From positions 1 through 24,423 of IMG/VR virus record IMGVR_UViG_3300012923_000208: a stretch of DNA of 24,423 bases. The stretch is one strand, 5' to 3'. Positions within the stretch are counted from its first letter, which is position 1; every line of letters starts with the position of its first letter. The notes beneath the pieces were generated by a model. The model made no database searches, was not told the origin of the DNA, and saw only the letters and a list, made by a program, of their open reading frames with translations. Of this stretch, positions 5,889-24,423 are shown piece after piece. This DNA is from a virus. The position numbers and the translations under genes are program-made.

Positions 5889-7352
5889 TCAGGGCTCCTT
5901 TCCCAATTCCGTTAAGAGTATGCGGGCCCGCTCCAGATGATTCTTTTCGACTGGAATCCCGCGAGCGACGACCGGCACAGCCTCGACAAAGATCCGAAGT
6001 TCCCGCCGGGCGTTTTCACGCTGCCCCGACGCGAGTAAGACGGTGGCGAGGTTCCAATGCCGTTCCCATCGGGGAACGAGCGTCGTGTCTGAAATTGCGA
6101 TCGCATGCTCGAGATACCGGCGCGTCTGCACGAGATCACCACGCTGATAGGACTGAAATGCGGCGGCATCCTGGCAGACGGTGCACGTGACTTCATGCTC
6201 CGCCGCGTAGGCCCAGAGCGTCTCATCATTCCGCCACATCGGCATGTGCACAAGCGTCACGACGCTGAACGCGGCGACGACCACGGCCGCTCCGGTGGGC
6301 GCCATCCGAGGGAAGCGCCGTGACGCCCGCGTCAGCCCCGCGCCCGCAAGGAGAGCGAGAGGCAGACACGCGAGATAGCTGTAGCGGTTGGCGACGAGCT
6401 GCGGGCCGTTCTGGAAGAGTCCCGCCTGTGGAAACACCGCGACCGCGTACCCTATCAGCGCTGCCGTCAAGCCTGGCCACCACCGCCACGTGAGGACACA
6501 TAGCGATGTCGTAAGGACCAGGATCGCGACGGCAATCGGATACTGCGGTTGCCCCCAGGACGGGACCCAGGTGTATTCGATCAGGTGACTCAAGCGCCCG
6601 GGCCAGAGCGTTTGCCGGGCGTAAAACACCTCGCTATAAGCGATCTGTAGCAAGCGGGGTCCGAGTCCGACAGTGGCCCACGCCGTGCTATTGCCCAGGA
6701 CGTGCAGGGCGCGGAAGGCAATCACAGACAGCACCACTGAGACGGCGAAGAATGGTGCTAGCCGCTTCCACAGGTGCGAGGGGACTCGACCCGTGCGCCA
6801 CCACTCAAGGCAGAGGAGCAGCACCGGCAATGTCACCGCCAGCGAATGCGATAAGCCAGCGAGCAGAAAGGCTCCGAAGGCGAACCCCCGTCGCTCTGTG
6901 AGCCAGAAGAGCACGGCGACGAGCAGCCACGTCGTCATGAGCAGTTGCCGAAGTTCGGTGATGAAGACCACCGATTCCAGACGGAGCGGATGCACGGCGA
7001 AGAGCAGCGCGGCGGCGAGGGGCCCGAGTTGGCCCTGCTGGATCAGCCGGCGCGCGATCACATAGACGAGAACGGCATTCCCCGCATGCAAGAGCACGTT
7101 GACCGCGTGCCACCCGCCTGCATGGAGACCCCACAGATGGTACTCCGTGTTGATGACGAGCCACGTCAACGGAATCCAGTGGCCGAAAAAGATATTTTGC
7201 GTGATCCAGACCCAGGACCATTCCCGGATGATGGGGTTCGACACGATGGCGGGCCCGTCGTCCCACTTGAGGAGGAAATCATAGCGGAACGCTGGCGCAA
7301 AGACGGCGCAGGCGACAACAAAGACAAAGAGAACCGGGAGCGAGCGTCTCAT
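5889..7352 (-). CDS. GT-C-fold multi-TM glycosyltransferase-like protein with C-terminal TPR helices (TMTC-like)
   Basis: A protein of 487 aa with about ten transmembrane segments. TM1 (residues 5-22) leads into YDFLLKWDDGPAIVSNP, where the Asp pair (31-32) is where GT-C and TMTC-type O-mannosyltransferase relatives carry their catalytic acidic motif. Further family landmarks are WHAVNVLLHAGNAVLVY (81-97), HPLRLESVVFITELRQLL (121-138), VANRYSYLACLPLALL (320-335) and MWRNDETLW (372-380), then paired helices like TPRs (383-487). Such enzymes move sugars from polyprenyl-phosphate carriers onto proteins or glycans on the outer side of the inner membrane. The ATG at 7352 overlaps the upstream stop as ATGA; a longer frame to 7562 overlaps the upstream gene and is unlikely. 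Substrate and activity are unknown. A host-derived surface-modification cargo gene is inferred. Confidence 0.72.
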   Translation of the reverse strand: MRRSLPVLFVFVVACAVFAPAFRYDFLLKWDDGPAIVSNPIIREWSWVWITQNIFFGHWIPLTWLVINTEYHLWGLHAGGWHAVNVLLHAGNAVLVYVIARRLIQQGQLGPLAAALLFAVHPLRLESVVFITELRQLLMTTWLLVAVLFWLTERRGFAFGAFLLAGLSHSLAVTLPVLLLCLEWWRTGRVPSHLWKRLAPFFAVSVVLSVIAFRALHVLGNSTAWATVGLGPRLLQIAYSEVFYARQTLWPGRLSHLIEYTWVPSWGQPQYPIAVAILVLTTSLCVLTWRWWPGLTAALIGYAVAVFPQAGLFQNGPQLVANRYSYLACLPLALLAGAGLTRASRRFPRMAPTGAAVVVAAFSVVTLVHMPMWRNDETLWAYAAEHEVTCTVCQDAAAFQSYQRGDLVQTRRYLEHAIAISDTTLVPRWERHWNLATVLLASGQRENARRELRIFVEAVPVVARGIPVEKNHLERARILLTELGKEP

Positions 7353-7639
7353 GAGTCCGGCTCGTCCAACGCCGTCCCCTCGGGCCAGCAGCCGAGCCAG
7401 GTCCCTTTCTCGGCAATCGGAGGTGAGCCAAAGTGCTTGTCGAGAAGCGCAGGGGTGACATCGTACCACTTTGAAAATCCGACCTTGGGCCGCCCCGTGA
7501 CGGCCTTGAGTTTCGCTCGGCACTCGCTCGCGGGCACGGGCCCGGCCTCTTGCCGCCACCACAGCGTGCCATCGCTGGAGGCATGCTGAGAGAGCACGAT
7601 GAATCCACAGAACGCGATTGAGTACAAGCGAGAGCGCAT
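7349..7639 (-). CDS. Small exported protein, 96 aa
   Basis: The signal peptide is MRSRLYSIAFCGFIVLSQHA. The mature part has two Cys (ASECRAKL, LGCWPEG) that could form one disulfide, and several Trp. It resembles small periplasmic proteins of unknown function. The ATG at 7639 overlaps the upstream stop as TAATG, and its own stop overlaps the GT-C gene as ATGA, so it is firmly part of the glycosyltransferase-like cassette. Whether it assists that membrane protein is unknown. Confidence 0.58.
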   Translation of the reverse strand: MRSRLYSIAFCGFIVLSQHASSDGTLWWRQEAGPVPASECRAKLKAVTGRPKVGFSKWYDVTPALLDKHFGSPPIAEKGTWLGCWPEGTALDEPDS

Positions 7640-17017: not shown

Positions 17018-18676
17018 TCAGCCGTTGAGAAACACGAAGGGCGTGCCATCCGGGTTGGTGAACACGAAGGGCGTGTCAGCCGGCGTGGTGAACACAAAGG
17101 GCAACGCCGCGTCGACCCCGGTATCCCATTCACTCGTCGGGCCAGCTGACAGATGGGCCGCCTCAAGCGTGACCAGATCGGCGCAGGGATACGAGAGCGT
17201 CCAGCCGAGACGTTGGCCGATCGTCGGGTTGTCCGTCCGAAACAAGGCATAGCGCACCCCGAGCCAGGCATCCGACACAGGAGAAAAAATCGGGAACACA
17301 ACGGGTAATGTCAGTGTCCTGGCCTCTGTGGTGAGGGTCACGCTCAAGGAGGTCAATCCGGTCGCGAGCGGAGCCGAGAAATCAAACCCCACGTGGAAGG
17401 CCTGATGACCCTCAACGGGGGCGCCCGCATCCGAGAGCTTACTGGAAATCGTGACCGTGCCCTTCGCGGCATCGGAGGGCCGCGCGAAGATCCGATACAG
17501 GAATCCACCGGCGTCAATGCCATAGACCTCTGGAACGGTACTGATGGTGAGGGAGACCAGATCCAGTATCCGATTGCCTCCCAGATCCGGCGTGGTGGTG
17601 ACGAACCATTTCCCTTCGGCGAAGCACAGCAGTCGTGTACTGTGCACGCCTGTCTTCGGGTCGGTGAACGAGAAGAGATAGACGAGGATAATAATGCCAT
17701 TGAGTTTCACAATGCCGGGTCGAGGTCCGAAGGTAATCGCCGGACCGAGGCTCGAAAAGAATTGATCGAGTTTTCCGGAGAGCTTTTGCGGAGTCACGCC
17801 CAGCAAGGAATGAATCGAATAGCCGGTGGAGAAAATCAACGACCGGAAGTACCCGATGACGGAATCCCCGAAGGCGGTGCCGATCGTGGTCACGGCATTC
17901 GTCACGGAGAACGTGGTGACGCCGGACACCGTCGCGATGTTGCCGAGCGCGTCGATCGCCGCGATGCCGATGATCCAGAGCTGGGACACGGTCGAGATGA
18001 GCCGCTGAATCGCCCCCTGGAACGCATCATCCGTGATCTTGAACGAGCCAGAGCCGTTCGCCGCGACGAAGTCGGCAAAGGCATTGGGGGCGCTAAAGGT
18101 CATGGTGCGCGGCGCCGTGCCCAAGAAGGCATAGCCCGAGAACACGGAGAGGGCGTGGCCCTTTTTCGTCGCGTCGATGACGGTGAAGGTGACGCCGTCC
18201 CATTTGACATACCCAGCCTTATCGTCGAGGAACAGAACCGGGCCGTCCTGCCAGATCACGATGGCGGTGCCGCTGGGCGATGACGAGAAGGTCTGGACGG
18301 GGGCAATCTGGACATCCACGGCGCCGTCCAGGAAATGGTCTCGCATCCACGCCGACCCATCCTCGAAGATCGCGATGGTGACCGGGTGTGGGGTGGTGTT
18401 GGGCGCATAGGTGAGCGAGCATCCGTAGGATTCTTTGATCAGCGATCCCGCGTGCAGCGCTGTCCCCCTCGGCCCGTTGTAGAGGGGGGTCGGGGCGATC
18501 CCACGGCCGAGCGGCATCGCATTCTCGCACCGATAGAGCTCGTCCTCGTCCAGGGTGAGGCGCGAGTCGGTGACGTTGAGGCCTTTCCAGGCGCGTTGCG
18601 TCTGGGTGATCGGCGGGGCCGGCCCCCGGCCGCCGCCGCCCCCACCCCCGCCGGGCGGTCCCGGTTGCCGGGCCAT
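17018..18676 (-). CDS. Tail nozzle / DNA-stabilisation-like protein, 552 aa
   Basis: After a Gly-rich, probably flexible start (GPPGGGGGGGGRGPAPP), residues 29-70 read AWKGLNVTDSRLTLDEDELY and CENAMPLGRGIAPTPLYNG. This resembles the opening of P22 gp10-like stabilisation and other podovirus nozzle proteins. The rest shows repeated beta segments such as HPVTIAIFEDGSAWMRDHF, SVFSGYAFLGTAPRTMTFS and STVSQLWIIGIAAIDALGN, consistent with a beta-propeller. It would close the tail tube below the adaptor. The C-terminus is a short repeat of PFVFTTPADT / PFVFTNPDGT / PFVFLNG. The ATG overlaps the adaptor stop as TGATG. The product name is inferred from order and fold pattern. Confidence 0.58.
   Translation of the reverse strand: MARQPGPPGGGGGGGGRGPAPPITQTQRAWKGLNVTDSRLTLDEDELYRCENAMPLGRGIAPTPLYNGPRGTALHAGSLIKESYGCSLTYAPNTTPHPVTIAIFEDGSAWMRDHFLDGAVDVQIAPVQTFSSSPSGTAIVIWQDGPVLFLDDKAGYVKWDGVTFTVIDATKKGHALSVFSGYAFLGTAPRTMTFSAPNAFADFVAANGSGSFKITDDAFQGAIQRLISTVSQLWIIGIAAIDALGNIATVSGVTTFSVTNAVTTIGTAFGDSVIGYFRSLIFSTGYSIHSLLGVTPQKLSGKLDQFFSSLGPAITFGPRPGIVKLNGIIILVYLFSFTDPKTGVHSTRLLCFAEGKWFVTTTPDLGGNRILDLVSLTISTVPEVYGIDAGGFLYRIFARPSDAAKGTVTISSKLSDAGAPVEGHQAFHVGFDFSAPLATGLTSLSVTLTTEARTLTLPVVFPIFSPVSDAWLGVRYALFRTDNPTIGQRLGWTLSYPCADLVTLEAAHLSAGPTSEWDTGVDAALPFVFTTPADTPFVFTNPDGTPFVFLNG
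17031..17105 (-). repeat. 30-bp tandem repeat encoding FVF decapeptides
   Basis: Units at 17031-17060 and 17061-17090, plus a partial third from 17091, each start AACACRAAGGGC on the plus strand and encode about ten residues with PFVF. They form the extreme C-terminus of the nozzle-like protein. Repeated aromatic strands at a virion protein tip could mediate subunit contact. Confidence 0.7.
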
Positions 18677-19371
18677 CAGTAGCCTTGCTTGCCGCTGCGC
18701 GCGGCGGTGTAGGCGGAGAGCATCTGACCGACCCGGGCCCCTTCGATGTCCCGCATCGCGCGGATGTAGAAGCCAAAGTGTTGCTCGGCCTCGTCATACC
18801 GGCGCTGATTGATCTTGGCCAGATAGGCCGCGTAGAACGGAATGGGGACCGTGTAGGGGAAGGGGAGCGGGTCGGGGTCCGCGGCGTTCACGAAGGTGGT
18901 GGCGAGGACCGAGAGATCGAAATCCGCGTTGTAGACCGCGCCCGGGGCCGGGGCGATGTAAATCTGATTGGCCCCGTAGCGCGCGAAGCCCCAGGGCCGA
19001 TTCTGGTAAAAGGTGAGCGCCCGGGCCTTGGTGGTGAGGTCGGTAAAGGTGGGGTTCTCGAGGACGACGCGGGTGCTCCCGTAGATCAGGATCACGTTGA
19101 TGCAATCCAGCACGGTCTTGTTCGGCGCGAGGGCGGTGAAGGTGTAGAGGTCCTGGCCGATGGTCAAGGGGACGTTGGGGACGTAGGTCCGCGACCCGCC
19201 GCTCCAGAGATCCCGCTGATTCGTCGCATCGTTGATGAACACGGTGAGATCGAAGTCCGAGAAATACTGCGAGAGCGTGGGGTTCAGCGGATTCGGGACG
19301 TAGGTCGCGGCGAGGTCATGGAGCAACCGCCGCGTCCGCGTCAGATACGTCCCGAGCGTTTCCCCCGCCAC
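18676..19371 (-). CDS. Putative head-tail adaptor protein, 231 aa
   Basis: The N-terminal part TLGTYLTRTRRLLHDLAATY and YFSDFDLTVFINDATNQRDL fits the helical start of podovirus adaptor (connector) proteins. A beta-rich middle follows (VPLTIGQDLYTFTALAP, CINVILIYGSTRVVLENPTF, PWGFARYGANQIYIAPAPG). The C-terminal helices carry PFYAAYLAKINQRRYDEAEQ and FYIRAMRDIEGARVGQ. It would bind under the portal and carry the nozzle. The start is a GTG at 19371 with a modest ribosome binding site; a perfect hairpin (19379-19396) lies just upstream. The order capsid, small protein, adaptor, nozzle supports the call. Confidence 0.6.
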   Translation of the reverse strand: MAGETLGTYLTRTRRLLHDLAATYVPNPLNPTLSQYFSDFDLTVFINDATNQRDLWSGGSRTYVPNVPLTIGQDLYTFTALAPNKTVLDCINVILIYGSTRVVLENPTFTDLTTKARALTFYQNRPWGFARYGANQIYIAPAPGAVYNADFDLSVLATTFVNAADPDPLPFPYTVPIPFYAAYLAKINQRRYDEAEQHFGFYIRAMRDIEGARVGQMLSAYTAARSGKQGY

Positions 19372-20249: not shown

Positions 20250-21257
20250 CTAGACAGAGTCAAAGGTAAGACCGGTCACCTTGGAGACACTCTTCGGCTT
20301 GACACAAACCAATTCGGCCACAGTCACGAGCGCGCCGACATAGCCCAGCTGGTAGTTTGCGAGCGTGGACTGGAACCCCGTGAAGGCGAAGGCCGCGGCG
20401 CGGTGGAGATACGGCGCGGTGTACTTGCCCTTGAAGAGATAGAGCGTGCCCTCCGTGCCGTAGGCCGGGTCGTAGTAGATCGGCACCGAGCCGACCATGA
20501 GGGCGTTGAACGCCGACCGCGGGCCCTCGGGCACCTTGGAGAAGCCGGAGCCCGGCGTGATGACAAACTGCTCGAGGCCCAGGTAGTCGCGGGACAGCCG
20601 CGACCACGTGCCCGGGCCGGTCACGCCGAAGTCCGGCGGCTCGCCCTGGTTGAACTTCGACGCGGAGGTGATGTACTGATTGATGAGCGCGCGGGTTGGA
20701 TCGACCCCGCCCGCGTTGATGACGTTCGCCTGCAGCCACGTGTTGGCCGCCCGCGAGAGGTTGGCGTAGGTGCCGGTGGCCGACGCGATCAGCGGCAGGC
20801 CGTCGAGGTCGTTCGAGCCGTAGGTGGCGTTCGTCCAGATCTGGGTCGAGTAGTATTCCGCCTGCGAGTTGCCGGCGTCGTTCATGCGGGCGGCCAGGAT
20901 CGGGATCACCGCGGCGTCCCACTGGACGAGCCCCTCCAAGCCCAGGAACGGGATCGGGGTAATGATGATCTTGAGGTTCCACTCCGCGTTGACGCCGGGA
21001 TTGAGCGCGGCCGGCTGGGGAAACTTGCCGGAGGCGTCGGTCGCGACGGTGTTGACGTAGCTGCCCCCCTGCATCGGCACGGTGACCGAGGACATGCCGC
21101 CGCCGGCCGGCTTCGCGTTGGCGAAGAGCGCGGCCATCAGCGGCGTCGCGTTGCGGGTCTGGACGATCAGCTTGCCGGTGAAGGCGCGCCGCGTGAAGTT
21201 TTGGAGCTCCGTTCCGGCGGGACCGCCTGCGATGATGCCGACGCCAGGGATGGGCAT
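20250..21257 (-). CDS. Major capsid protein, 335 aa
   Basis: Starts MPIPGVGIIAGGPAGTELQN and continues with FTRRAFTGKLIVQTRNATPL and SSVTVPMQGGSYVNTVATDA. The middle contains WNLKIIITPIPFLGLEGLVQ and WDAAVIPILAARMNDAGNSQ, an HK97-fold-like long helix. The C-terminal part includes SVPIYYDPAYGTEGTLYLFK and FTGFQSTLANYQLGYVGALV, typical of the P-domain and axial regions of podovirus-type capsids. It forms the phage head shell. It follows the probable scaffold gene with a 3-nt gap and has only a weak ribosome binding site, so coupling to the scaffold is likely. Confidence 0.75.
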   Translation of the reverse strand: MPIPGVGIIAGGPAGTELQNFTRRAFTGKLIVQTRNATPLMAALFANAKPAGGGMSSVTVPMQGGSYVNTVATDASGKFPQPAALNPGVNAEWNLKIIITPIPFLGLEGLVQWDAAVIPILAARMNDAGNSQAEYYSTQIWTNATYGSNDLDGLPLIASATGTYANLSRAANTWLQANVINAGGVDPTRALINQYITSASKFNQGEPPDFGVTGPGTWSRLSRDYLGLEQFVITPGSGFSKVPEGPRSAFNALMVGSVPIYYDPAYGTEGTLYLFKGKYTAPYLHRAAAFAFTGFQSTLANYQLGYVGALVTVAELVCVKPKSVSKVTGLTFDSV

Positions 21258-21260
21258 GGG

Positions 21261-21875
21261 TTACCCGCGTCCTCTCCGTCCGGCGCGCTGGCCGAACATA
21301 TCCTGATAGACGGCCTCCACAAAGGGCTCGTTGATCTTGTCGAGGTCGGCTCCGGGACCCGCGGTGAGGAGCGCCTTCATCTGCTCGTCCTTGGCGTCGG
21401 CGACAAAGGCATCGGAGAGCGCCGCGCCGCGGGGCTCGGCGAGCTCCTTGGACTCGTAGAATTTCTCGACCGCGACGGTCAGCGACTTGGGCCCGATCTC
21501 GTTGTCCACCATGAACGTCTCGATGGCGTCCAGATCCTCCGCGGCGCCGCCCGCTTCCTCCAGCCGCGCGCGGAAACTCTGGCGCCGCCGGCCCTTCTTT
21601 TCATCCTCGAGCTCGGTGCGGAGCTTCTTGACGGCGTCGAGGTCGTCCTTGAGCTCGCCGCGGATGACCTCGGGGAGGTCGATCTCGGGGACGGACGCCT
21701 TGGGGAAGAGGCGCTTGCTGTGGGACTGGATGGCGCGCTTGGCCTCGGGGTCCCCGTAGAGGCGCTCCATCAGTTGGACCCGCGGATCTTTCGACGCGAT
21801 GTGCGCGAAGACCTGCGGATTCGCGAGGGCGGCCTCGGCGAGCTCGGCGGGCGTCAGGTCTGAGAGATCCGGCAT
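21261..21875 (-). CDS. Probable scaffolding protein, 204 aa
   Basis: An acidic, almost entirely helical protein starting MPDLSDLTPAELAEAALANP. A coiled-coil part follows (GELKDDLDAVKKLRTELEDE, then KKGRRRQSFRARLEEAGGAA). It ends in a basic tail (FGQRAGRRGRG), which in scaffolds often contacts the capsid protein. It sits directly before the major capsid gene, the standard scaffold position. GAGGAGCGCGACC precedes the ATG at 21875. No protease motif is seen. The assignment rests on composition and order. Confidence 0.62.
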   Translation of the reverse strand: MPDLSDLTPAELAEAALANPQVFAHIASKDPRVQLMERLYGDPEAKRAIQSHSKRLFPKASVPEIDLPEVIRGELKDDLDAVKKLRTELEDEKKGRRRQSFRARLEEAGGAAEDLDAIETFMVDNEIGPKSLTVAVEKFYESKELAEPRGAALSDAFVADAKDEQMKALLTAGPGADLDKINEPFVEAVYQDMFGQRAGRRGRG

Positions 21876-21886
21876 GGTCGCGCTCC

Positions 21887-22108
21887 TCAGTCGTCGCTAC
21901 TGTGGCGCGACTCGTCGGCGGTCTTGATCTTGGTGGGCGAGTCGATGTCCATGAGCCCCGACGGCGCGTCGCCCTTGGGCCACTTCGTCGGCGCGTCGAG
22001 GCCGCCGTGGTGACTCATCCGTTTCGGGTTGTAAATCATGCCCGCATCCTGCTTGTCGGAGGTGACCTCGCGAATCGGAAACATCTTCGGCCTTACGAGT
22101 CCAGCCAT
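21887..22108 (-). CDS. Hypothetical protein, 73 aa
   Basis: Begins MAGLVRPKMFPIREVTSDKQ, continues GMIYNPKRMSHHGGLDAPTK and ends in an acidic Ser-rich tail (ESRHSSDD). AAGGAGGCTAGATC before the ATG is a very strong ribosome binding site, implying high expression. It is between the Pro/Gly-rich protein and the scaffold, and is likely a minor head or assembly protein. I do not recognise the family. Confidence 0.58.
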   Translation of the reverse strand: MAGLVRPKMFPIREVTSDKQDAGMIYNPKRMSHHGGLDAPTKWPKGDAPSGLMDIDSPTKIKTADESRHSSDD

Positions 22109-22111
22109 GAT

Positions 22112-22525
22112 CTAGCCTCCTTGGGGTGGACCAGCGGGGGGACCGCCGGGGGGACCGCCAGCGCCTGGGACGCCCTGACCCGCGAGGCCGCCCCGGACCA
22201 CCTGGCCCATATCCATCGCGGCGGGCTTCTGTCCTGGATAGAGCTGTTGGCCCATGAATTTGAGCTCGGCCTGGCCGAGATCCTCGGGCGGCTTGGCGAA
22301 AATCTTGCCGAGCTTGGCCGCCGTTTCGGCGAGCGCGATGCCCATGGGCGACTCTTTCGGAAACATCGGGATGGCGATGCGGGCGAGCTCGGTGGCGAGG
22401 CCGGCGATGATCTTCCCGCGCGCTTCTTGCCCACCTTTCGCCTGGGGCGCCGCGGCGGGCTCGACCTGCCCCTGCGGCATGGCGGCCATCCCGGGCGGCA
22501 TGCCCCTCATGGGCGGGCCCTCCAC
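22112..22525 (-). CDS. Met/Pro/Gly-rich head-region protein, 137 aa
   Basis: A Met/Pro/Gly-rich N-terminus (MRGMPPGMAAMPQGQVEPAA) leads into a helical core (KIIAGLATELARIAIPMFPK, ALAETAAKLGKIFAKPPEDL) and a low-complexity Gly/Pro end (GAGGPPGGPPAGPPQGG). The open frame starts with GTG at 22525. An ATG at 22510 overlaps the stop of an Arg-rich mini-ORF as ATGA and is an equally good start (132 aa). Such proteins often lie between portal and scaffold. The function is unknown. Confidence 0.55.
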   Translation of the reverse strand: MEGPPMRGMPPGMAAMPQGQVEPAAAPQAKGGQEARGKIIAGLATELARIAIPMFPKESPMGIALAETAAKLGKIFAKPPEDLGQAELKFMGQQLYPGQKPAAMDMGQVVRGGLAGQGVPGAGGPPGGPPAGPPQGG

Positions 22526-22599
22526 CGAACGACGCGCGCCCGCCGGAGATTCCGGCGGGCGGCGCGCTTGGCGCGGCGGGTCGTCTTACCGACGGCCAC
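22507..22599 (-). CDS. Arg-rich mini-ORF, 30 aa, GTG start
   Basis: It begins MAVGKTTRRAKRAARRNL and ends VVRWRARP, with 13 Arg or Lys of 30 residues. Its stop overlaps the ATG at 22510 as ATGA. A 10-bp palindrome lies inside it, partly from its CGC/CGG Arg codons, so the region may be a non-coding hairpin instead. Confidence 0.3.
   Translation of the reverse strand: MAVGKTTRRAKRAARRNLRRARVVRWRARP
22538..22560. repeat. Perfect 10-bp inverted repeat (hairpin)
   Basis: GCCCGCCGGA and TCCGGCGGGC form a perfect 10-bp stem with a 3-nt loop. There is no T-tract. It lies in the gap before the first long head gene and overlaps the Arg-rich mini-ORF. It could be an RNA-stability or processing hairpin at the 5' side of the head mRNA. 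Confidence 0.55.
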
Positions 22600-22627
22600 G
22601 CCGTTTCCCGTAGCGGTGACGGATCAT
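22586..22627 (-). CDS. Arg-rich mini-ORF, 13 aa
   Basis: It encodes MIRHRYGKRRGRR; 7 of 13 residues are Arg or Lys. Only a short GGAA lies before the ATG. It follows the previous mini-ORF by 10 nt and ends, like it, in a Gly/Lys/Arg run. It is doubtful alone, but part of a pattern of basic mini-ORFs. Confidence 0.25.
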   Translation of the reverse strand: MIRHRYGKRRGRR

Positions 22628-22637
22628 TTCCGGGCGC

Positions 22638-22694
22638 TTACCGGCGGCCCTTACGCCCGTGCCGACGATTCCGTACGATGACGGTCTCGACCAT
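22638..22694 (-). CDS. Arg-rich mini-gene, 18 aa, strong ribosome binding site
   Basis: It encodes MVETVIVRNRRHGRKGRR. AAAAGGAGCACACC directly before the ATG at 22694 is one of the best ribosome binding sites in the window, so translation is likely. The peptide has a short hydrophobic start and a strongly basic end. It could bind nucleic acid (for example packaged DNA or RNA) or a virion protein; no family is recognised at this length. Confidence 0.48.
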   Translation of the reverse strand: MVETVIVRNRRHGRKGRR

Positions 22695-22772
22695 GGTGTG
22701 CTCCTTTTAGACTGCGCGGCTCAGTGCAGCTCGCGTGTGATTACGCAACAGGGCGCGCCGAGCCTGGGAAAC

Positions 22773-22823
22773 TCATCGACGGGACTTCCGACTGGACCCG
22801 CGGCGTCCACCTCGTGTCGCCAT
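22773..22823 (-). CDS. Possible leaderless Arg-rich micro-ORF, 16 aa
   Basis: It encodes MATRGGRRGSSRKSRR. It has no ribosome binding site, but its ATG is 8 nt after the -10-like TAGTCT, exactly as for the 14-aa ORF at 9048-9092. Because the AATG is part of the conserved element, the ATG may be conserved for promoter reasons and not for translation. Confidence 0.25.
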   Translation of the reverse strand: MATRGGRRGSSRKSRR

Positions 22824-22907: not shown

Positions 22908-23864
22908 CTAGACGAGCCCTAGCTGCGCGGTCCGCTTGTAGGCCATCGCGCAGTATTCCGGCTTGAGTTCGAGCCCGACGAACCGCCGGCCGAGGCGCTG
23001 GCAGACCAGCCCGACCGTGCCGCTGCCGGCGAAGGGGTCGAGGACCGCGCCACGTTCCGGGGTCCCGGCCAGCACGCAGGGCTCCACCAGCGCCTCGGGG
23101 AAAGTGGCGAAATGGGCCTCTGGGTACGGCTGGGTCGCAATCTCCCAGACGGAGCGGCGGTTACGCGTGCCGTTTAGAGACCCATGCGTCGCCGCGGTGG
23201 GCATTGGCAGAGACGAGACGAAAGGATCGTCGCCGAGCCTGACGAGCGAGCCGGCGCGGTTGCCGTGCTGATGCACTGACGGCTCCGCTATTGAGCGCGC
23301 GTCGTAGTAGTACCGCTCGCACTTCGCCAGCAGGAAGAGGTACTCGTGCGCCTTCGTCGGCCGATCCGTCACGCTCTCGGGCATCGGGTTCGGCTTGCTC
23401 CACACGATGTCCGAGCGGAGATACCAGCCGTCCGCCTGGAGGGCGAAGGCGACGCGCCACGGGATGCCGACGAGATCCTTCGGCTTGAGGCCAGGTGTGT
23501 GCTTCAGGCTCCCAGTTCCGTTGCCGCCCAAAGGATGTGCAAAGATCTGCCGAGCCGACAGCATGGAGGATCCTTCAAGGCGTGACGAGGCCTCGCTTGT
23601 CGTGTCGCCACGAGATTGCGCGCCCCACGACCCGGCGTAGGAGTCCCCGAGGTTGAGCCAGCACGTCCCGTCATCGCGCAGCACCCGCCAGACCTCGCGG
23701 AAGACGACCACCAGGGCGGCCACGTACTCCTCCGGCGTGCGCTCGAGGCCGAGCTGGCCCATGACGCCATAGTCGCGCAGGCCCCAGTAGGGAGGGCTCG
23801 TCACGACGCAGTGGACGGACTGGTCACGCAGCGGGATGGATCGGGCGTCGGCGTTGATGATCAC
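22908..23864 (-). CDS. DNA methyltransferase, beta class (N4-cytosine or N6-adenine)
   Basis: A protein of 318 aa that should transfer a methyl group from S-adenosylmethionine to a base in DNA. The catalytic motif IV is VVTSPPYWGLRDYG at residues 20-33 (SPPY, more common in N4-cytosine enzymes). The AdoMet-binding motif I is DPFAGSGTVGLVCQRLG from residue 276, followed by RRFVGLELKPEYC. Motif IV before motif I defines the beta class, with the target-recognition region between them. The GTG at 23864 is the best start; the ribosome binding site is weak. No restriction enzyme gene is adjacent, so it is probably an orphan enzyme protecting phage DNA from host restriction. Confidence 0.82.
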   Translation of the reverse strand: MIINADARSIPLRDQSVHCVVTSPPYWGLRDYGVMGQLGLERTPEEYVAALVVVFREVWRVLRDDGTCWLNLGDSYAGSWGAQSRGDTTSEASSRLEGSSMLSARQIFAHPLGGNGTGSLKHTPGLKPKDLVGIPWRVAFALQADGWYLRSDIVWSKPNPMPESVTDRPTKAHEYLFLLAKCERYYYDARSIAEPSVHQHGNRAGSLVRLGDDPFVSSLPMPTAATHGSLNGTRNRRSVWEIATQPYPEAHFATFPEALVEPCVLAGTPERGAVLDPFAGSGTVGLVCQRLGRRFVGLELKPEYCAMAYKRTAQLGLV

Positions 23865-23882: not shown

Positions 23883-24423
23883 CTATCGAGTAGAACGTCC
23901 GCCGCGTCCATGCTGGGCCTGCATCTCCTTGATGGCCAGCAGGCGCTCGCCCTTCTTCGCGGCGGCGTCTTGGAGATGCCGGGCCTTGGACCGGAGGACG
24001 TCCACCATCGGGGGGTCCTTCATGGTGACGTAGTCGGCGAGGTCGATGGCGCCAGCCTTGAGGAGATTGTCGGCCTCGGCCTTGATCGCGGCGGCGTAGA
24101 GCGGGGAGGCCGAGTGGGCGGCGACCAACACCACGGTTTCCTTGGGGATCTGGGTCAAGAGGAAGCGGGCGCCGTCGGGCTTCACGAGGGCCTCGGGCTC
24201 GAGCATCCGGTGGTAGCGCCAGACCAGGGTCGCGATCTCGCTGACCGCGTGCTCCACCCGCATCGCCAACTCGCGCGGCCGGGCCGACGCTAGGGTCGCC
24301 ATGACGCCGACCTGATTGCCGGCGCGGATGCCGGGCTCGCCCTGCCCCTGGAGGAGCAGCGGGAGGCCCCCCTGGTCGGCGAATTGCTTGTCGATCCCGT
24401 CCACCTCGGCGAACGCCTCCGGC
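23883..24423 (-). CDS. Portal protein, C-terminal part (5' end outside window)
   Basis: The frame stays open to the right edge (upstream codons read PEAFAEVDGIDKQF), so the start is missing. The visible 180 aa include GGLPLLLQGQGEPGIRAGNQ and MATLASARPRELAMRVEHAV, a pattern I know from portals of environmental podovirus-like phages. A beta part follows (RFLLTQIPKETVVLVAAHSA), then helices with ADNLLKAGAIDLADYVTMKD and DVLRSKARHLQDAAAKKG. The portal is the dodecameric DNA gate of the head. Its position ahead of scaffold and capsid supports the call. Confidence 0.6.
   Translation of the reverse strand, partial: PEAFAEVDGIDKQFADQGGLPLLLQGQGEPGIRAGNQVGVMATLASARPRELAMRVEHAVSEIATLVWRYHRMLEPEALVKPDGARFLLTQIPKETVVLVAAHSASPLYAAAIKAEADNLLKAGAIDLADYVTMKDPPMVDVLRSKARHLQDAAAKKGERLLAIKEMQAQHGRGGRSTR

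Follow-up and report, generated by a model that had tools for sequence, protein, structure and literature searches.

Arginine- and lysine-rich micro-genes between the portal and capsid genes of tailed phages probably encode nucleic-acid-binding peptides of head assembly

Protamine-like core peptides, which are small, arginine-rich and DNA-condensing, are found in baculovirus (p6.9) and adenovirus (mu). The early antiterminator N of phage lambda carries an arginine-rich motif that acts with boxB, along with further domains. In the Microviridae, the J protein of phiX174-like phages and VP8 of gokushoviruses are short Arg/Lys-rich peptides that are important in DNA packaging (PMC11281519). Translational autoregulation of gene 32 in phage T4 uses an mRNA pseudoknot of the H type that lies just before the gene (PMC535899, PMC3014915).

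The window, meaning the whole stretch of DNA that was analysed (24,423 nt; virus record IMGVR_UViG_3300012923_000208, positions 1 to 24,423), and its relatives contain micro-genes in the head operon for peptides of 11-30 aa that are about half K/R. Like J and VP8, these are very short basic peptides encoded with capsid genes. The likeness is one of kind and no sequence relation is claimed: J and VP8 come from ssDNA phages, are about twice as long, and attach to the capsid through a C-terminus that is buried and mostly hydrophobic, whereas micro-genes A and B, found in clade 1 of the relatives, end in K/R, and a hydrophobic/aromatic capsid-binding C-terminus was absent from their sequences. The phage peptides share small size and Arg-richness with p6.9 and mu, and could likewise condense DNA, but p6.9 and mu belong to viruses of eukaryotes and are not sequence relatives. 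The clade-1 micro-gene B resembles T4 gene 32 in having a predicted H-type pseudoknot upstream of its start; gp32, however, is a large single-strand-binding protein, and binding of a peptide to the pseudoknot is a proposal in our case. An arginine-rich peptide next to an RNA hairpin, often GNRA-looped in clade 1, also recalls lambda N and boxB, although N has extra domains and acts in antitermination.

The features of the window are listed in Table 1. On the minus strand, the C-terminus of the portal protein is followed by the methyltransferase, the mini-ORF cluster, genes of 132-137, 73 and 204 aa, and the capsid gene. The initial annotation described three tiny minus-strand basic ORFs (18, 13 and 30 aa) and a fourth basic frame, and all four are present. 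It gave the first a strong ribosome-binding site, which was confirmed; this is the only strong Shine-Dalgarno (SD) sequence among the four, as the 13-aa ORF has no clear SD and the fourth frame, which is 27 aa long in its GTG-started form, has none. The statement that the ORFs end in or consist of Arg/Lys runs was correct except for the 30-aa ORF, which is Arg-rich throughout but ends in RARP. The cluster was also thought to be the 5'-most part of the head operon, and this did not hold since the portal and DNA methyltransferase genes sit upstream. In a 360-nt gap of the window's composition, 0.03 such ORFs are expected and three were observed, a number reached in 0 of 2000 Markov replicates. 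The stop codon (TGA) of the 30-aa ORF and the ATG of the head gene behind it share bases (ATGA, 22507-22510), and this head gene is predicted to be translationally coupled to it. A counterpart of the same head gene comes after the micro-genes in clade 1 and clade 2. The 204-aa gene is a probable scaffold gene, judging from its position.

Table 1. Features of the portal-to-capsid region of the window.
Feature	Position	Strand	Basis or remark
Portal protein, C-terminal part	23883..24422	-	28% identity with annotated portal of L003
DNA N6/N4 methyltransferase, between portal and micro-genes	22908..23864	-	PF01555, E 7.5e-48
Candidate micro-gene, 16 aa, MATRGGRRGSSRKSRR	22773..22823	-	Composition only
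Shine-Dalgarno AAAAGGAG of micro-gene A	22701..22708	-	Sequence
Micro-gene A, 18 aa, MVETVIVRNRRHGRKGRR	22638..22694	-	SD AAAAGGAG; counterparts in L273, L005 and clade 2
ORF of 13 aa, MIRHRYGKRRGRR	22586..22627	-	Unlikely by chance; resembles clade-2 peptides, e.g. MVTRYRRGRRRGRR
Micro-gene B', 30 aa, GTG start, MAVGKTTRRAKRAARRNLRRARVVRWRARP	22507..22599	-	L273 orthologue; similar ORFs in L005 and L006
GC-rich inverted repeat within micro-gene B'	22533..22566	.	Self-match
Following head gene, rich in Pro, Gly and Gln (132 aa counted from ATG)	22112..22510	-	ATGA overlap with B'
73-aa head gene	21887..22108	-	Gene order kept in L003, L004 and other loci
204-aa gene preceding capsid gene	21261..21875	-	Scaffold guess by position
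Major capsid protein	20250..21257	-	phrog_9953, E 4e-20

Within the window's own lineage, the relatives compared were L005 and L273, and a further scan for close relatives of the window found no additional ones. The capsid proteins of L005 and L273 are 78% and 63% identical to that of the window. Counterparts of micro-gene A are MFTEFQRDRRGRRRGRR in L005 and MFTEIVRNRRGRRGRRR in L273, the latter preceded by AGGAGG. L005 also has a basic ORF of 52 aa, with its stop codon running into the following start (TAATG), and MKTTRRHKRAARRNAAKARVVRSMRRK of L273 aligns with micro-gene B'. Between B' and this orthologue, 11 codon changes are synonymous and 8 alter the amino acid, and the first 13 codons contain 8 synonymous changes and 1 non-synonymous change. 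The codon-level comparison proposed at the outset found the amino acids kept and a bias towards synonymous change. The alternative outcome that had been considered, loss of the frame with retention of an RNA hairpin, was the reverse of what was seen. The GC hairpin of the window was rejected as a functional element, and the inverted repeat is probably incidental, because it is not kept in L273. No orthologue of the 13-aa ORF was found in L273 or L005, and none of the fourth frame among the relatives compared (the L005 and L273 lineage). We grade the four frames separately: it is nearly certain that A and B' are protein-coding, the 13-aa ORF is likely to be, and the assignment of the fourth frame is tentative and somewhat doubtful.

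A search of IMG/VR with the window's capsid protein alone gave no match. A profile of three capsid sequences retrieved more than 580 related stretches, and 80 of these were examined together with two GenBank genomes (MW202753 and MW202825), giving a clade-1 set of 82 loci. In most of these, the gap separating the portal gene from the next head gene holds two ORFs, A (e.g., MYKKMKRGRKTRR) and B (e.g., MARKARKGRKGRK), each with a separate SD. Counting only ORFs that start with ATG behind an SD, span 9-20 aa and consist of K/R to at least 50%, there were 87 in this slot, distributed over 48 of the 82 loci. The same class of ORF was found 0 times outside the slot in 1.35 Mb searched on both strands, and 0 were found in Markov sequences. 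Among the 55 loci with enough upstream DNA, 46 have at least one micro-gene and nine are without any. Across the relatives, the copy number varies, from a single 11-aa ORF (L100) to three or four in tandem (L098). The spacer from A to B measures 67-84 nt, and frameshifting or bypassing that would join A to B was rejected because this length is variable.

In clade 2, where the capsid protein is only about 34% identical, 80 loci were examined and 77 were usable. A basic ORF of 13-15 aa, of the type MIERNRRGKRKHRK, occupies the slot in 70 of the 77, and the counterparts of the window's micro-gene A are of the M..ERNRRGRKHKRK types. At least one micro-gene was present in 71 of the 74 loci whose upstream DNA was long enough. 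Among cultured phages that are distant but have a related capsid protein, no convincing counterpart was seen. Matches in assembled genomes were on MAG contigs from several phyla, which may be mis-binned phage contigs, and the hosts are uncertain.

Codon usage was then compared across the loci. Micro-gene A of clade 1 occurs as 37 distinct nucleotide versions that encode 22 peptides (pN/pS 0.063) and B as 29 versions that encode 17 peptides (pN/pS 0.074), while the other two frames gave values of 2.2 to 53. The clade-2 ORF had a pN/pS of 0.097 compared to 1.8 and 5.0 in its other frames; the ORFs were selected for basic composition, which makes the absolute values somewhat low, and the contrast between frames is large. 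By this measure, the micro-genes are kept by selection on their amino acids, in a fixed place in the head operon, across a broad group of tailed phages. The relatives lend strong support to the earlier view of these ORFs as genuine small basic genes: they share the slot, provide their own SDs and differ by synonymous changes.

At capsid identities as low as 34%, what stays the same is the location where portal and head genes meet, the shortness of the genes and the charge of their products; the exact sequence and the number of copies change. Such a pattern speaks for a role in head assembly in which the charge of the peptides acts on nucleic acid. The one to four micro-genes between portal and capsid, each of about 11 to 30 mostly Arg/Lys residues, probably encode peptides that bind nucleic acid during head assembly. 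The cluster would be an array of very short genes whose Arg/Lys-rich products are synthesised alongside the portal, scaffold and capsid proteins, attach to nucleic acid largely by virtue of their charge, and assist in packaging the genome or condensing it inside the head, in the manner of microvirus J/VP8 or of a protamine. We consider such J- or protamine-like peptides to be the best explanation and give it a probability of about 0.5. Of the functions initially put forward for the peptides, neutralisation of packaged DNA, mRNA binding and adjustment of head-gene translation may each still apply.

In clade 1, the spacer between A and B contains a small hairpin, often GNRA-looped, followed by the sequence GGG-TNT-GGCTGAC-TT-CCC-(A/T-rich)-GTTGGCC, which fits an H-type pseudoknot. 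Pairing is maintained in 98.4% of cases for helix 1 and 91.1% for helix 2, with 38 cells changed on both sides; the covariation score was reached by 0 of 500 shuffles and was lost when the partner columns were slid. A conserved ORF of 7-8 aa (MAAFPLTK) was considered for this region and rejected, as neither its start codon nor its stop is kept: the base preceding TGG can be A, G, C or T, and the sequence forms the pseudoknot instead. A search of Rfam 15 gave no match in the window and none in the L008 slot up to an E of 1. When IMG/VR was searched with the RNA core alone, 80 readable places were obtained, three of which (L124, L127 and L136) were rejected as chance matches, all in one unrelated repetitive gene. 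B follows in 75 of the other 77, the remaining two being cut off, and A precedes in 65 of the 77. A covariance model added six more places, all in B-bearing loci. Of the window and its relatives, the window (E up to 5), L005 and L006 were searched with the model and gave no match, and loci with A alone lack the pseudoknot. The pseudoknot is therefore tied to B, and A seems to be the more general component.

The pseudoknot directly adjoins the SD of B on its upstream side and probably controls translation of this second peptide in clade 1. Arginine-rich peptides often bind structured RNA, so the micro-gene products could be autoregulators whose arginine-rich motif binds an mRNA structure of their own operon, in clade 1 the pseudoknot, and thereby adjusts how much B or head protein is made. 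The covariation, the position ahead of the SD and the restriction to B-bearing loci all agree with this. The proposal fits B and its pseudoknot but not A, and the window, L005 and L006 have micro-genes despite having no match to the RNA. It cannot be the general function, and we regard autoregulation as a rather unlikely account of the family.

Another possible explanation is that the micro-ORFs are cis-acting leaders: the act of translating them, through coupling or pausing on basic residues, would set how strongly the following head gene is translated, and the peptide itself would do nothing in trans. In clade 2, a median of only 9 nt separates the ORF end from the next gene, and together with the overlap in the window this means that coupled synthesis or a pure leader role has to be considered. 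The TAATG of L005 is also in keeping with it. In clade 1, however, the next head gene lies a median of 105 nt away and has its own SD, which is a poor fit, and A and B are separately initiated across their spacer. Moreover, coupling by itself would not call for basic residues to be conserved while synonymous codons change freely. We consider a leader function unlikely, a little more so than autoregulation.

Two further alternatives were weighed. Cationic peptides could be directed at the host, interfering late in infection with its membranes, ribosomes or nucleic acids; the extreme charge and the presumably late operon would suit this, but the linkage is fixed to head genes and not to lysis or early genes, and hydrophobic residues are few, so we find a host target very improbable. 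Chance ORFs of GC-rich DNA, with the hairpin inside B' as the real element, can practically be dismissed: the window's high GC does favor Arg codons, but the same ORFs are present in relatives of 39-50% GC and nowhere else in the 1.35 Mb, and the synonymous bias and unconserved hairpin contradict this reading.

Our literature search, which did not cover the catalogue of Fremin et al. 2022, reportedly one of predicted small phage genes, found no description of this micro-gene family. The default minimum gene length of Prodigal is 90 nt, and the family goes unannotated because genes of 11-18 codons are shorter than gene finders usually accept. In MW202753 and MW202825, A and B are not annotated and minus-strand CDSs are annotated over them instead. 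These hypothetical CDSs, antisense to A and B (L003 4740-5038 and L004 6384-6644), look like gene-caller artefacts. The family shows clearly how codon comparison between relatives can identify genes of about 13 residues. It also suggests that small basic peptides dedicated to head assembly may be in use among tailed phages, and it brings with it a covarying RNA element that no Rfam family matches. If the peptides are borne in the virion, this J- or protamine-like system would be among the smallest known protein genes. The fullest version, in which a widespread group of tailed dsDNA phages packages its genome with virion-borne peptides of about 13 residues and one clade controls its second peptide through a previously undescribed pseudoknot bound by that same peptide, is a long shot, less probable than either autoregulation or a leader role by itself.

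Several minor observations were made at these loci. In L100, a GC hairpin and T run resembling an intrinsic terminator come right after the 11-aa ORF MARRHRRSRRK, directly downstream of the micro-gene. Three clade-1 loci without A or B (L060, L063 and L064) have a next head gene with a strikingly acidic N-terminus, e.g., EMEEGEGEAEEVETEE. An extra basic micro-ORF (e.g., MKGRKTKRKGRRGY) is located about 390-850 nt upstream of the capsid gene, outside the main slot, in L316, L336 and L350. In L005, an ORF of 53 aa whose tail is basic (GRRVSRRGRRSKR) lies between portal and micro-gene A, 2175-2013 nt upstream of the capsid gene. The corresponding place in L003 and L004 has no gene like the window's methyltransferase. 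Elsewhere in the window, an SU10-type adaptor protein (18676-19371; PF24175, E 3.6e-8) suggests a short-tailed phage, and a 557-aa ORF (5889-7562) appears by eye to be a multi-helix membrane protein, which is unusual for a phage late region.
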